This document shows, piece after piece, positions 8,845 to 15,479 of a stretch of DNA of 44,830 nt. Origin of the DNA: Dehalococcoidia bacterium (lineage in GTDB: Bacteria > Chloroflexota > Dehalococcoidia > UBA2979); assembly GCA_009692725.1 (NCBI GenBank), contig SHYP01000012.1, forward strand, positions 1-44,830, in the 5' to 3' direction. The notes beneath the pieces are model-generated. The model made no database searches. It saw nothing but the letters and a program-made list of their open reading frames with translations, and was not told the DNA's origin. The stretch's first letter is position 1; every line of letters starts with the position of its first letter. A program made the position numbers and the translations under genes.

Positions 8845-10182
8845 CTAGTCGGCGGCGGCCTCGGCGGCGAGGATGAGCGGCGGCTCGTGGTCCGCGAGCG
8901 AGGTGACCTTCGGCGGCGGCTCGCGCGAAATCAGCACCGCGGCGGCTCCGACGCTGTATGCGACGGCGAGCATCAGCCAGGCCCACGTGTAGGTACCGGT
9001 CGTGTCGAACAGCAGCGATACCGCGAGCGGGCCCGCAGCGCCGAAGACTAGGCCCACCGGCATGCCGATGCTACGGACCGCCCCGATGTGCACGCGGCCG
9101 AAGTACTTCGCCCAGATGAACTCCCCCAGCGGAACGCCGCCGCCGAAGCCCAGCCCCCAGACGAAGAACGCGGCGAGCATCAGCGGTAGCTGGTGGAGCT
9201 CGCCCGCAAGCAGCATCAAGAGCACGCCCGTGACCATCCCGCCGAAGCTCGCGCCCCAGAGCGTGCGGACCCGGAACCGCGCGAGCGTGTAGCCCCAGAG
9301 GAACTTCGCGAGCAGGTTCGCAACGCCGGCGACGGAGGCCGCCAGCGCCGCCTCGCCGCGCGTGAACCCCGCGTTGGTGACGAATGGGATGCCGTGGATC
9401 AGCACCGCGAACGCGGCGCCACCGAAGCAGCCGAACGAGAGCGTGAGCAGCCAGAACGCGCGCGTGCGCACCGCCTCGTGGCGCGTGTACGAGTTCAGCC
9501 GGTCGAGCGTGATCGTGTCGTGGTCCCGCTGCGACGTGCCGACGCCGTCACTCCGGCGCCCGTCCGGGAGCTGTCCGTAGTCCTCGGGCTGTCGCCGCAT
9601 CAGCAGCGCAACCGGAATCGAGAGCACAAGAGCACCGGCGGCCAACAGGACGTACCCGTCGCGCCAGCCTCGTTCGTCGACGACCCTCGTCATGACGAGC
9701 GGCATCGTCATGCTCGCAAACGAGATGCCCGTCGACCCGAGTGCGATCGCCCAGCCGCGCCTCAGTACAAACCACTTCGACATCGTGACGTTGAGAACGA
9801 GCGGTCCAACGAACGCGACGCCGAGGCCCACACCTACCGACTGCAGGGCGAAGAATTGCCAGAGCTCGTGGACACGCGAGATCAGCAGCAGCGATCCTGA
9901 GAGCCCCACAGCGCCCACCAACATCAGCGGACGGGCTCCGTGGCGGTCGACCAGCGGGCCTACGAACACGCCCACGAGACCGCTGACGATGTTGGTGCCG
10001 GTTACGGCGAGCGTGAACGCGCCGACGCTCCAGCCCAGGTCGTCAACGACTGGCCGCAGGAAGATCCCCGCCGAGCCTACCCCCGCCGCCACCGCGACGA
10101 AGTACCCAACGACCGCGCCCGCGACGATCCACCATCCGTAGAAGATGCGCGGACTGTCGGCGGGGCGGGCAGTGGCGGTCAT
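8845..10182 (-). CDS. MFS transporter, monocarboxylate/oxalate-type
   Basis: This 445-residue protein with about 12 hydrophobic helices starts at ATG 10182 (MTATARPADS), just before the first helix; the frame runs further upstream without homology. The first helix contains FYGWWIV, a hallmark of the OFA/MCT-like branch of MFS carriers for monocarboxylates. The loop after helix 2 has VGPLVDRHGARP. A charged central loop (about residues 195-235) separates two six-helix halves. It is divergent from the solute-binding protein gene at 10322 and convergent with the enoyl-CoA hydratase gene. Organic-acid transport would fit these neighbours, but the substrate is not determined. Confidence 0.83.
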   Translation of the reverse strand: MTATARPADSPRIFYGWWIVAGAVVGYFVAVAAGVGSAGIFLRPVVDDLGWSVGAFTLAVTGTNIVSGLVGVFVGPLVDRHGARPLMLVGAVGLSGSLLLISRVHELWQFFALQSVGVGLGVAFVGPLVLNVTMSKWFVLRRGWAIALGSTGISFASMTMPLVMTRVVDERGWRDGYVLLAAGALVLSIPVALLMRRQPEDYGQLPDGRRSDGVGTSQRDHDTITLDRLNSYTRHEAVRTRAFWLLTLSFGCFGGAAFAVLIHGIPFVTNAGFTRGEAALAASVAGVANLLAKFLWGYTLARFRVRTLWGASFGGMVTGVLLMLLAGELHQLPLMLAAFFVWGLGFGGGVPLGEFIWAKYFGRVHIGAVRSIGMPVGLVFGAAGPLAVSLLFDTTGTYTWAWLMLAVAYSVGAAAVLISREPPPKVTSLADHEPPLILAAEAAAD

Positions 10183-10321
10183 GGCCGCGATTCTATGGCC
10201 TTGAGAGCCATGGCGACCGCACGTCGCCCGCTGGGTCGTGGCCGCTGCGGTTCGCCGCGCCACGACGGTCATGATAGATTTCAGTCAATTCGGGACTAGC
10301 AGCGCCACACCGGAGGGATGC

Positions 10322-12121
10322 ATGGAATCGCGAGCTCAGGAAGTCACGGAGAGCAAGGGCGCGGCGATCGGCCGCCGTGCCGCCTTGCGAGGTATCACTA
10401 TCGGCGGCGCAGGCCTCGCGGCGGCCGCCCTCATCGGCTGCGGCGGCGACGACTCTGCTACGTCGGCGCCAGCGTCCGGGGACTCGGCAGCGTCTATCAG
10501 CACCACTGGGAAGCGCCCCGAAAAGCTGCCCTCCGGTTGGAACTGGGATCCGGCCCTGCCGTACCCGTATCAGTTTCCCGAGCCGGCGAAGGAGGCCAAG
10601 CCGGGCGGAACGCTGCGTGTCGCCACGTCATGGGACGTGGGGCCGATGGATCCCACAATCTCGGCGGCCGGTGGCTCCATCACCGTGCCGAACATGGTCT
10701 ACAACCGCCTGGTCGGACACGTGGGCGGGGTCGACGTCGACCCGTTCAAGTTCAAGCTTGAGCCTGAGCTGGCGGCCAGTTGGGAACGCTCGCCTGACGG
10801 CCTTGCGGTTACGTTCCACCTGCAGAAGGGCGTGAAATGGCAGAACGTCGCGCCGTTGAACGGCCGCGACTTCGTGGCGGCCGACGCGAAATACGCATTG
10901 GAGCGTTACGCCACGACAGGCATTCACAAGTCGTACGGGACGAGCGTCAAGTCCATCGAAGCGGTCGACGCTACCACGCTGAAAGTGAACCTCACCAGGC
11001 CGATCATCGACTTCGTGATCCCGCTGGGCAGTCGTTACCAGACGATCTTCCCCCGCGAGCTCGTCGACAACGGCACCATCGCCAAGGAGGCGGTCGGCAC
11101 CGGCCCGATGATCCTCAAGGAGGCTGCCGCCGCGAGCCACGTGCGCCTGGACAAGAACCCCGCTTACTGGGAGCGCAAGGTCCTCATCGACGGCGCGGAG
11201 TTCCGCGTCATGCCCGACGCGGCCGCCCGAATCGCGGCTTTCCGCGCGGGGCAAGTGGAGTATGCCTATTCGCCTGTCACCACGGCGCGCGACGTGCAAG
11301 GGCTGGTCGACTCCAACGGTGGCATCCAGGTCAACATGGTGCCACAGACCTACGTCACCTCGATCGCGCCCGCGTTCAATCTGCGCAACCCCAAGTACGC
11401 AGACATCCGCGTGCGGAGAGCGGTCTCACTGGCGATCGACCGCAAGGCGCTGATGGACGTGATCTGGAACGGCGTCGCCCGCGCGCTGCCGACCATTCCC
11501 TGGATCTACATCTTCGACAAGGAGCCCACCGTCGCCACAGGCGAGCTCGGCAACTGGCTGCGGTACGCCCCCGCCGAGGCGAAGCAGCTGCTGCTGGCCG
11601 CGGGCGCCGAGGACCTCACGATCAACGCGCCGTACTACGAGTACTCAACGTCCGACACGCAGCGCGCGGAACTGATGACCGACCAGATGCGACAAGCCGG
11701 CATCCAGTTCAAAGCATCCAAGGTCGACTACACCCAGTACAACTCCCAGTTGCAGTCCGGGAACTGGGTGGACGCGCTTGGCCACGCCTACCTCGCCCTT
11801 GGCTTCGACGCGGACACGTTCTTCTACACGCAGGTGCACTCGAAGTCGCCCGGTAACCGTGACCACATCACCGACACCGAGATCGACACGTGGGCCGAGG
11901 CGCAGCAGGTAGAGCTCGATCCCAAAGCCCGGCAGCAGATCCAACGCAAGATGTGGAACAAGATACTCGACCAGGCCTGGCGCCCCGTCACCGCGCGCGG
12001 CATGACGTTCGAGATCTACCAGCCGTGGCTGCGGGGCATTCGCTTCGGCGGCGCGCTCGGCGACAACAGCTCCTTCTACGAGTGGGGCGACCAGATCGCG
12101 GAGGCCTGGCTCGACAAGTAG
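10322..12121 (+). CDS. Tat-exported lipoprotein, ABC solute-binding protein family 5
   Basis: This 599-residue protein starts at ATG 10322, with GGAGGG 5 bp upstream. The N-terminus has a twin arginine (Arg18-Arg19), a hydrophobic stretch and a lipobox ending LIGC with Cys40, so it is predicted to be exported folded and lipid-anchored. A Thr/Ser/Ala-rich linker precedes the mature family 5 fold (PGGTLRVATSWDVGPMDP near residue 98). It would bind a peptide or other organic solute for an ABC importer. No permease genes adjoin it. It is a paralogue of the truncated gene at the window start. A hairpin terminator follows 30 bp after the stop. Confidence 0.88.
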   Translation: MESRAQEVTESKGAAIGRRAALRGITIGGAGLAAAALIGCGGDDSATSAPASGDSAASISTTGKRPEKLPSGWNWDPALPYPYQFPEPAKEAKPGGTLRVATSWDVGPMDPTISAAGGSITVPNMVYNRLVGHVGGVDVDPFKFKLEPELAASWERSPDGLAVTFHLQKGVKWQNVAPLNGRDFVAADAKYALERYATTGIHKSYGTSVKSIEAVDATTLKVNLTRPIIDFVIPLGSRYQTIFPRELVDNGTIAKEAVGTGPMILKEAAAASHVRLDKNPAYWERKVLIDGAEFRVMPDAAARIAAFRAGQVEYAYSPVTTARDVQGLVDSNGGIQVNMVPQTYVTSIAPAFNLRNPKYADIRVRRAVSLAIDRKALMDVIWNGVARALPTIPWIYIFDKEPTVATGELGNWLRYAPAEAKQLLLAAGAEDLTINAPYYEYSTSDTQRAELMTDQMRQAGIQFKASKVDYTQYNSQLQSGNWVDALGHAYLALGFDADTFFYTQVHSKSPGNRDHITDTEIDTWAEAQQVELDPKARQQIQRKMWNKILDQAWRPVTARGMTFEIYQPWLRGIRFGGALGDNSSFYEWGDQIAEAWLDK

Positions 12122-12399: not shown

Positions 12400-12497
12400 T
12401 GGCGGGAGTGCGTGGGAGTCGAACCCACCCGGGACGAGCACGTCGCCCCACAGACGGTTTTGAAGACCGCGAGCGCCACCGGACACCATCCACTCCC
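12400..12497 (-). tRNA. selC: tRNA-Sec (anticodon UCA)
   Basis: The minus strand folds as a selenocysteine tRNA of 98 nt including an encoded CCA (12402-12400). It starts GGGAGTGG and ends with CACTCCC plus a discriminator G. The D-arm has the Sec-type 6-bp stem (GGTGTC/GGCGCT) with a 4-nt loop. The anticodon loop is CTTCAAA, giving UCA. The long variable arm has a 7-bp stem (GGGGCGA/TCGTCCC), and the T-arm is GTGGG TTCGACT CCCAC. These features (length, D-stem, long arm, UCA) distinguish it from tRNA-Ser. One oddity is that the eighth acceptor pair appears to be G-G. It lies on the same strand as, and 42 bp after, the truncated formyltransferase gene, and 2 kb from the UGA-containing FTR gene at 14552. 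Confidence 0.92.
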
Positions 12498-12539: not shown

Positions 12540-14216
12540 TCAGGCCGGGTCGGGCGGGGTCGACGCCAGCGGCGCGGCTACTGCTGCGACGGCAGCCACG
12601 GCGAACGTTGCGAACTGCCCGAGCAGCCCGCGTACCGCCGCGTCGTCGAGACCATCCGCGGTCCAGCGCAGGCGCGCACCGCCGTCCTCGACGCATACGC
12701 AGAGGCCGCACGCCAGAGGCTCGGCGCACGCCCAGTCCGCGTCGTGCAGGCAGATGCCGATCGGCAGCGCGATTGCGCCGCCCGAGCGAGCGCGCGCGCG
12801 CAGCGACGGGATGCGTGCGTGCACGTCGAGTGCGTATGTCCCCGCCTCCCGCACACGCTTGAGCTCCGCGCGCAGCGTACGCAGCGCCGGCGCCGCTTGG
12901 AGCAGGCCCGCGCCATCGACGCGCAGGGCCACTGCGGGCGCGCACACCGGCGGCGTGCCTTCCAACAAGGTCGCGAGCGCGTGATCGCGGAACGCCACGT
13001 CGCACGCCGCACGCGGCTCACCGCTGCCGATGAACGCCGCGAGCGTGAGCGCGACGGCGTCTACCCCACTCTCGCCGCCCGCCGCACGGGCCAGCAGCGG
13101 AGCGAGGTCTGCGGGCAGCGCCTGCTCGACCGTCACGCGTTGGCCGGTCGCGGGGGGCCAGTCGTGCGCCAGGCTCGGCGCGGCGGCGTTCGCGAGGCGT
13201 TCGATCCAGAAAGGCTCGTGCTTGGCGACGGCGCGCTGCACTGCGGCTAGACGCTCCGCGAGCGCGTCGCTGAGCACCGGCACACGCGCGTCACGCTCGA
13301 TGCCGCGCGAGGCAAGTGCCGCGCCGTCGAGACGCGCGCCCTCGAGCGTGGCAAACCGCTCGAGCCGCAGCGCGCCGTCGACGCCCGCGACGACCGCGCT
13401 GCGGTCGCCCGCCATGAGCACGGTTCCAGCCGGGACCGACGTGGGGTCCGGGAGCAACGTCGCCTTTTGCACTGCGACCACGCTGCCGTCCGGGCATAGC
13501 AGCTTCGGCAGGCCGAGCGCGTTCTCGTACGGCCCGAAGTCCAGCGCGCGCACGAGCGCATCGAGCGAGTGCACGGGGCGGCGCCAGTCCAGCACGCCCG
13601 CCGCCGGCGGCCGCCGCAACCGCCCGAAGTAGCTGCGGCCCTGCTCCGGCTGCGGCTGCAACGCCGCGGTGCCCGTGGTCAGCTCCGGAATCAGCTCGAC
13701 GAACGAGTGCAGCGCCGCTTCGTAGCAGGCTGCGTTCAAGCTGAGCGCCGTGGCGCGTGGGCCGACGTCGAACTTGACTTGCTTCAACACCACGCCTGCG
13801 TCGACGGCCGGCTCCATGGTGTGCCACGTGATGCCGTGCTCGCGCTCCCCGCGCATCAGCGCCCATGACGTCGCGTGCACGCCGGCGTAGCGCGGCAGCG
13901 GCCCGTCGTGGTAGTTCACCGCGAGGCGGCGCGGCAGCGCGAGCAGCGCCGGCGGTAGCACGCGCAGGTTCACGACGCTGAAGAGGAACTGGAATGACAC
14001 CGCCGATAGCAGCGTCAGGAGGTCAGCGGACGGATCGATGGTAGTAAGCCCGCGCTCGCCGGCCCACTCGATCAGCTACGGCTCTTGCGTGACGATGGCC
14101 CGAATCTCGTGTCCCGCGGCGCGGAACGCGTCGGCGCATTGCGCCAGCAGCGAGCCCTCGCCGATGAATACGGCACTGGCACGCTCGCCCGCGCCGCTCG
14201 CTGCTGTGTCGACCAC
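12540..14216 (-). pseudogene. Formyltransferase plus partial NRPS condensation domain, in-frame amber codon, truncated
   Basis: From GTG 14216 the frame reads AVFIGEGSLLAQCADAFRAA, then a TAG at 14078-14076 (codon 47), then LIEWAGERGL and a full formyltransferase domain. Catalytic-type residues are Asn101, His103 (NYHDGPLPRY) and Asp139 (EPAVDAG), matching methionyl-tRNA formyltransferase Asn106/His108/Asp144. Residues about 290-545 resemble the C-terminal half of an NRPS condensation domain, without HHxxxDG. Related proteins continue into adenylation and carrier domains, but here the frame ends at TGA 12542-12540, next to tRNA-Sec. If translation restarts, the part from ATG 14000 (486 residues) would lack the N-terminal strand of the formyltransferase. 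I regard it as a decaying NRPS gene. Confidence 0.7.
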
Positions 14217-14540: not shown

Positions 14541-14546
14541 AGGAGG
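14541..14546 (+). promoter_or_regulatory. Ribosome-binding site deciding the FTR start
   Basis: AGGAGG lies 5 nt before ATG 14552. The frame is open further upstream, but this full Shine-Dalgarno match and the onset of homology fix the start. Confidence 0.8.
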
Positions 14547-14551
14547 ACCCC

Positions 14552-15049
14552 ATGGTCGAGCAGCCGAGCGACGCCGATCGGGCGCAAGCGTCGCCCGAGT
14601 CGATCGCGAAGATGTGGAAGTTCGTCACCAACTTCGCGGAGAAGAGCGGCACGTACCTGCACCCGCAGCGCGAGATCACGGAGTTCCTCGTGATCGGCCT
14701 CGCGAAGCACGTCGAGGAACTCGGCCGGCCACTCTGCCCGTGCAACTTCTACGAAGACAAGGCGGCCGAAGCGAAGCAGTCGACGTGGATCTGCGCCTGC
14801 GAGGAGATGCAGAAGTACAAGTACTGCCACTGACTGCTCTTCTGCACGCCGGAAGGTCTTCCGGTCACCGAGTACCTGCCAGCCGACCACGAGGGGCGCG
14901 AGATCTACGGCGTCATCGAGGATCCGCACCCCGACAAGGGCCGAGCACTCAAGCGGCTAGAGGAGAAGCAGGGGCGCACGATCCGCAAGGGCGGCCCGCG
15001 CGCCGACGCGCCGCCGCCCGATGGAGGTCCGCCCACCGACCCGAGCTAG
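14552..15049 (+). CDS. Ferredoxin:thioredoxin reductase catalytic subunit, predicted selenoprotein (Sec94 at UGA)
   Basis: Read through an in-frame UGA at 14831-14833, this is a 165-residue FTR catalytic (beta) subunit. FTR uses a [4Fe-4S] cluster beside a redox disulfide to pass electrons to thioredoxin. The family signature is CPC-x16-CPC-x8-CHC; here it is C62-P-C64, 16 residues, C81-A-C83, 8 residues, C92-H-U94. By comparison with the cyanobacterial enzyme (cluster Cys55, 74, 76, 85; active disulfide Cys57-Cys87), Sec94 replaces active-site Cys87 and would pair with Cys64. After the UGA the same frame continues with the family's conserved LLFCTPEGLPVTEYLPADHE and IYGVIEDP, to TAG at 15047. 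The C-terminus is Pro/Gly rich. A SECIS-like hairpin follows the UGA, a tRNA-Sec gene is 2 kb away, and thioredoxin is the convergent neighbour. Nearby genes end normally at UGA, so the code is not reassigned. Confidence 0.9.
14849..14864 (+). promoter_or_regulatory. SECIS-like hairpin for selenocysteine insertion
   Basis: CCGGA (14849-14853) pairs with TCCGG (14860-14864) around the six-base loop AGGTCT; an inner A-T pair can close it further to a GGTC tetraloop. It begins 15 nt after the UGA, within the window where bacterial SECIS elements bind SelB. As I recall it, the apical AGGUCU loop, with its critical GU, is the same as in the E. coli fdhF SECIS. The hairpin lies inside the coding sequence, as expected for bacteria. 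Confidence 0.75.
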
Positions 15050-15152: not shown

Positions 15153-15479
15153 CTAGACGAGGACGGCGTCGAGGCGCTTCTGCAGGTCGCTCTTCGGGCG
15201 GAAGCCGACGATCTGGCCGGCCACGGCGCCCTGCTTGAAGACCAGCAGCGTCGGGATCGAGCGGATCCCGAACTGGCTCGCGATCTTCGGGTTCTCGTCC
15301 GTGTTCAGCTTGACGAACTTGACGCGTCCCTCGTACTCGCCAGCGAGCTCCTCGACGATCGGGGCGACCATGCGGCAGGGGCCGCACCACGGCGCCCAGA
15401 AGTCCACGAGCACCGGGACGTCACTCATCAGGACATCGGCGTCGAAGGTCGCGTCGGAGGTGTCGGCGGGGTGCGCCAT
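15153..15479 (-). CDS. trxA: Thioredoxin
   Basis: This 108-residue cytosolic thioredoxin has the canonical active site WCGPC (Cys32, Cys35) and the cis-proline loop [10 protein letters not shown] with Pro76. Length and motifs match standard Trx. A GGAAGG site lies about 10 nt before the ATG. It reduces protein disulfides and is itself reduced by a thioredoxin reductase. The gene converges on the predicted selenocysteine-containing FTR catalytic subunit, sharing a terminator hairpin, which makes it the obvious candidate partner. That pairing is inference from position; no NADPH-dependent TrxB is seen in the window. Confidence 0.93.

Follow-up and report, generated by a model that had tools for sequence, protein, structure and literature searches.

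The window analysed here, positions 1 to 44,830 of contig SHYP01000012.1 (44,830 nucleotides) from a Dehalococcoidia bacterium (assembly GCA_009692725.1), carries a gene resembling that of the catalytic subunit of ferredoxin:thioredoxin reductase (FTR), the frame of which is interrupted by a TGA at the codon of a redox-active cysteine. The question raised by this locus is whether the UGA is decoded as selenocysteine (Sec) and, if it is, which reaction the resulting enzyme would catalyse and how it relates to the selenoproteins and FTRs that are already known.

The interrupted frame and the residue at position 94

The frame of the FTR-like gene (Table 1) is open only if its TGA is read through. 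When this codon is translated as U, the product of 165 residues displays C62-P-C64, a spacer of 16 residues, C81-A-C83, a spacer of eight residues and C92-H-U94, followed by 71 residues and a TAG, in agreement with the FTR-beta spacing CPC-x16-CxC-x8-CH(x) and the continuing frame put forward in a sequence-only reading of this DNA. In a profile search, the Pfam model FeThRed_B (PF02943) matches residues 18-101 with 87.5 bits, for a cut-off of 22, and spans the TGA. The alignment with the solved FTR 1dj7 is gapless and lays its CHC over the CHU of the window protein, and C62, C64, C81, C83, C92 and U94 occupy the six FTR positions, aligned with the solved FTRs at equal spacing. These positions presumably comprise four cluster cysteines and two redox positions, and we take position 94 to be Cys87 in the numbering of Synechocystis FTR. 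The proposal that the UGA replaces the last active-site cysteine is corroborated by the homologues that align across the codon: among the best 120 of 1,520 homologue proteins, 119 have Cys at this position, one (P0093) has Trp and none is a Sec form. The Trp of P0093 is perhaps a UGA that was called Trp by the gene caller.

Table 1. Features of the window at and around the interrupted gene
Feature	Position	Strand	Basis or remark
tRNA-Sec, anticodon TCA	12400..12497	-	ARAGORN; Rfam RF01852 70.7 bits at 12404-12497
Formyltransferase-like ORF, 486 aa	12540..14000	-	PF00551 59.8 bits; between tRNA-Sec and FTR
Shine-Dalgarno-like AGGAGG ahead of ATG (14552)	14541..14546	+	Sequence
FTR catalytic-subunit-like selenoprotein gene	14552..15049	+	165 aa, predicted Sec94; PF02943 match
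In-frame TGA, predicted Sec94	14831..14833	+	At the second redox-active Cys position of FTR
Predicted bacterial SECIS core CCGGAA-GGTC-TTCCGG	14849..14864	+	Codon conservation; hairpin present in the minimum-energy fold of the window
Perfect 22-nt inverted repeat, 5-nt loop	15069..15117		Between the convergent FTR and thioredoxin genes
Thioredoxin (WCGPC), likely FTR substrate	15153..15479	-	PF00085 113.6 bits; TIGR01068 131.9 bits

The same codon was followed in related genomes. A scan of genome contigs gave 55 loci, one of which (L054) stops short of the codon; TGA is found in 44 of the 54 informative loci, which bears out the expectation of UGA at this codon in other genomes, and the other ten have TGC or TGT. 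An enlarged set, made of these loci and those of a class-wide genome search with duplicates removed, comprises 59 distinct sequences including the window, with 49 TGA, nine TGC and one TGT, and neither TAA nor TAG at this codon. Sequencing error as the source of the TGA was rejected because independent assemblies repeat it. Two genomes (G111 and G188) each carry a TGA-type and a Cys-type FTR, and in G188 the Cys copy (L101) carries 14 additional residues ahead of the CxC.

The history of the codon was approached with a tree of 141 rows, in which columns 94 and 98 were masked and which omitted 36 of the 120 database proteins along with L045 and L053, two TGA loci that are cut off. All 47 Sec rows fall within one clade of 52 (support 91/89, bootstrap unsettled). 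They share this clade with five Cys rows, and it can be surmised that Sec was probably gained once in the stand-alone subfamily and lost a few times. Four residues past Sec, Cys98 is present in 48 of the 49 TGA sequences, encoded by TGC in some and by TGT in others, and this position is Val in all ten Cys loci; L012 combines U with Val98, and the five Cys rows inside the clade have Cys98 in three cases, Thr98 in one and Val98 in one, the last on a long branch. A co-variation of Cys98 with Sec94 was considered and dropped: in the masked tree all Sec rows lie in one clade, and the pairing may therefore represent one event followed by descent. Cys98 may be a resolving thiol, or a marker of one origin.

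Selenocysteine machinery and a predicted SECIS

The tRNA-Sec gene of the window lies 2.1 kb from the FTR gene, and among the 55 loci seven have a tRNA-Sec in the flank available, each of these seven being a TGA locus. The nearest genome available (G001) has an FTR gene at 95% identity with a tRNA-Sec on the same contig. As to the sel genes named in the sequence-only reading, selA and selD were recovered in this genome; selB was found neither there (79% complete) nor in the other of the two nearest genomes, G155 (89% complete), yet it exceeds its cut-off in 40 of the 43 genomes that have an FTR with an in-frame TGA. These 43 belong to a set of 80 genomes, which also includes 27 with an FTR lacking this TGA, one in which the FTR is cut (G233) and nine without FTR. 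The codon was read directly in 33 of the 43 TGA genomes and in seven of the 27 non-TGA genomes, and taken from listed stops in the rest; the codon of G066 is Cys, which places this genome outside the 43, and G233 and L054, which end before the codon, are excluded from the counts.

A tRNA-Sec of at least 60 bits is present in 40 of the 43 TGA genomes, selA in 40 and selD in 38, and every one of the 43 has at least two of tRNA-Sec, selA, selB and selD. None of the four was detected in 11 of the 27 FTR genomes without TGA, and the association of the machinery with TGA gives a Fisher p of 6e-6, the genomes being non-independent and their relatedness uncorrected. The 60-bit line is our own choice, the Rfam gathering score being 47; many genomes have, alongside a strong tRNA-Sec match, weak ones of 44-53 bits, and six of the 11 genomes in which none of the four was detected have tRNA-Sec-like matches of 47-50 bits.

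A SECIS element is likely to follow the UGA directly, a proposition substantiated by the locked codons of its loop and upper stem and not by folding energy. Codons 101-103 are GAA GGT CTT in all 47 full-length TGA genes and form the apical part of the predicted hairpin, the GGU of the loop lying 22-24 nt 3' of the UGA; codon 104 is CCC or CCG in these 47 sequences. GGT-CTT occurs in none of the ten Cys genes, in which the Gly codon is GGA, GGG, GGC or GGT, and in five window genes GGT accounts for 7% of Gly codons and CTT for 4% of Leu codons. The hairpin GGAA-GGUC-UUCC is lengthened by CC/GG in the window, whereas in other sequences the extension is either GAUG/CAUC, with an A bulged out, or C-G above a bulged U. 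A comparable loop, AGGUCU, is present in the SECIS of Escherichia coli fdhF.

In the window, the 53 nt that follow the TGA fold no better than shuffled versions (z 0.37); the corresponding values are 0.27, -0.21 and -2.21 (L013) in three other TGA sequences, and 0.27 and -1.70 in two Cys sequences. Only L013 of the four folded TGA sequences beats its shuffles, and folding energy alone is uninformative on the SECIS. As a control, selD was sought by motif in nine related genomes and recovered in eight, L138 giving no match. All eight genes have a UGA and a perfect stem over a GGT, but the latter lies 33-36 nt after the UGA and other hairpins are nearer; the control is ambiguous, and the selD hairpins lend weak support to one common loop.

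On the basis of these sequence comparisons, we propose that selenocysteine is very likely the residue inserted at UGA94. If the TGA were instead a true stop, the gene would encode a truncated protein of 93 residues or be a pseudogene. TGA is indeed an ordinary stop in the window, where it ends two of the six other ORFs checked, but truncation would cost the protein its second redox residue, the downstream frame is kept over 47 sequences with a median dN/dS of 0.23 indicative of purifying selection (52 usable of 55 pairs, 11 sequences), and the exclusion of every codon other than TGA, TGC and TGT from the 59 distinct sequences is difficult to reconcile with a stop; we regard this explanation as highly improbable. 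The TGA stops of the neighbouring ORFs also dismiss a general reassignment of UGA, and they count against the idea that a tRNA, reassigned or misreading, decodes UGA94 as Trp or Cys, an idea for which the Trp listed in P0093 could be invoked. The tRNA-Sec and sel genes of the bearing genomes and the locked codons of the hairpin are likewise at odds with such a decoding, which appears scarcely credible.

Gene neighbourhood and a proposed role in thioredoxin reduction

The selenoprotein predicted from UGA94 stands beside a plausible substrate. A thioredoxin gene is convergent with the FTR gene, at a distance of at most 0.9 kb, in 12 TGA sequences including the window among the 58 sequences searched, and in six of these 12 an NADPH-thioredoxin reductase (TrxB) is encoded on the other flank of the FTR. 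The inverted repeat that separates the FTR and thioredoxin genes of the window is possibly their shared terminator. The side on which the six relatives have TrxB is occupied in the window by the formyltransferase-like ORF, which has matches of 77-79% identity in L001 and L002 and is probably outside the FTR system. At the genome level, the TrxB model is matched at 1e-40 in 24 of the 33 TGA genomes tested, and FTR is therefore often not the sole candidate thioredoxin reductase.

The predicted model of the protein (pLDDT 90) has the FTR fold, and its closest folds are FTR catalytic chains, among them 7bzk_A and 1dj7_A at an rmsd of 1.2-1.3 over 90-92 residues, several of these chains having been solved in complex with thioredoxin. 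The variable (alpha) chain of FTR (PF02941) was matched in none of 38 related genomes, the control Synechococcus elongatus being matched, and the enzyme is therefore not a plant-type FTR heterodimer. We consider it highly probable, from the gene and its relatives, that the locus encodes a stand-alone, single-Sec, FTR-type [4Fe-4S] enzyme, in which UGA94 would be decoded through SelB and the SECIS and which would pass electrons from ferredoxin to the adjoining thioredoxin.

In Synechocystis FTR, a Cys57-Cys87 disulfide lies beside the cluster. Following the established FTR mechanism, the resting enzyme of the window, in which SelB would have inserted selenocysteine at the hairpin just 3' of UGA94, may contain a Cys64-Sec94 selenenylsulfide adjoining a [4Fe-4S] cluster held by Cys62, Cys81, Cys83 and Cys92. 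One ferredoxin electron, delivered via the cluster, would open the Cys64-Sec94 bond, the Sec selenolate would then lean on a cluster iron, and Cys64 would attack the thioredoxin disulfide; a second electron would close the cycle, with Sec94 as both leaving and resolving group. It can be hypothesised that Sec speeds the opening and re-closing of the selenenylsulfide and makes the oxidised enzyme easier to rescue. For the steps that go beyond the sequence, we infer the chemistry from the FTR literature.

It is conceivable, if unlikely in our estimation, that the UGA encodes Sec but that the enzyme is a ferredoxin-dependent reductase of another substrate, such as a small thiol, a peroxiredoxin or a glutaredoxin-like protein. 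The lack of an alpha chain match in the 38 genomes and the frequent TrxB matches would suit this alternative, as would the presence among the fold relatives of the Methanosarcina disulfide reductase 4tpu and the Desulfotalea glutaredoxin fusion 7pwe; in addition, most of the 55 loci have no window-like thioredoxin in the examined flank, which is short in some. However, within the lineage of the window the gene that recurs next to FTR is that of thioredoxin, and the nearest folds remain the FTR catalytic chains, several of which were solved with thioredoxin; thioredoxin reduction is the role that we propose. If the gene is read as predicted, much of Dehalococcoidia would reduce thioredoxin via a selenenylsulfide beside a [4Fe-4S] cluster.

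Other predicted Sec-FTR types and comparison with known systems

When the phylum (Chloroflexota) was searched with the double-U model NF041072 and PF02943, a further type came to light, in which the FTR is joined to a rubredoxin-like domain (PF21349, 54.8 bits in L122) and TGA stands at the same Cys position. Nine of these fusions were fetched, four of them chosen for a flagged TGA: seven have TGA (L121, L122, L128-L131 and L134) and two have Cys (L132 and L133). The Sec motif of the fused forms is CY-TGA-GLYV, their hosts belong to other families of the same class, and the seven TGA genomes have selA in all seven cases and tRNA-Sec in six. In one contig (C65 of G053), selA (9961-11310) lies about 2 kb from the Sec rubredoxin-fused FTR (13453-13704). 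A single clade of both Sec groups was rejected on a tree of 46 rows that did not include L123 (p-AU 1e-43). This result fits separate Sec gains in the stand-alone and the rubredoxin-fused FTRs, and a very old Sec behind both groups, lost many times, is also compatible with the clade test. L123 (G259, contig C292, minus strand, 3-593) is a single sequence that combines FTR and glutaredoxin domains and has its TGA at the other redox position, that of C64 in the window protein, in a YCP-TGA-R motif with a hairpin after the TGA.

It can tentatively be hypothesised, with slightly more doubt than confidence, that selenium was placed repeatedly and independently in FTRs, on the cluster-facing residue in the stand-alone and rubredoxin-fused forms and on the opposite Cys in the glutaredoxin fusion. 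On this view, the pairing of a selenolate with a [4Fe-4S] cluster would be a recurrent natural way of letting one-electron donors carry out a two-electron disulfide reduction, and Cys98 would act as an in-protein resolving thiol.

Sec-FTR as such is already catalogued: it was predicted in 2008 from two Global Ocean Sampling sequences, of which one contains two Sec (Zhang & Gladyshev, PMC2398784), FtrB was tabulated as a CxU selenoprotein in 2022 (PMC9312934), and it appears again as CxU in a 2026 table together with the NCBI model NF041072 (PMC13188914). The Global Ocean Sampling proteins share with the window protein the FTR catalytic subunit and the TGA at a redox-active Cys, their CxU corresponding to CHU here; the available text describes two marine sequences, and neither their lineage and gene context nor a counterpart of Cys98 (PMC2398784). 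The NF041072 family, FtrB_double_U, is likewise an FtrB family with Sec within the catalytic pair, but it is named as a double selenoprotein, whereas the window protein has one UGA and reaches 31.9 bits of the required 160, which excludes its membership. One rubredoxin fusion (44.7 bits) and the glutaredoxin fusion L123 (96 bits) also fall below this cut-off, and none of 201 genomes of the phylum yields a match over it. NF041072 rejects the window protein, so such genes may be annotated as ending at residue 93. In the accessible portion of the open-licence literature searched, we found no description of the Dehalococcoidia Sec clade, of its gene cluster or of the rubredoxin-fused form. What the present analysis adds, and what is new to that body of literature, is a class-wide clade with a single Sec, together with its likely SECIS and its gene cluster, as well as another clade with Sec at the same residue, that of the rubredoxin-fused FTRs.

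With the ferredoxin-dependent disulfide reductase of Methanosarcina (4tpu, whose chain is named Rubredoxin) the window protein shares an FTR-like catalytic domain. The cyanobacterial and plant FTRs (1dj7, 2pu9 and 7bzk), which work with a variable chain, share with it the six conserved positions, their spacing and the fold (rmsd of about 1.2), but they have Cys where the window protein has Sec, and the latter carries about 60 extra C-terminal residues past the match. The dozens of natural Sec enzymes predicted here, with their close Cys relatives, would offer a means of testing the contribution of Sec to cluster-driven disulfide cleavage.
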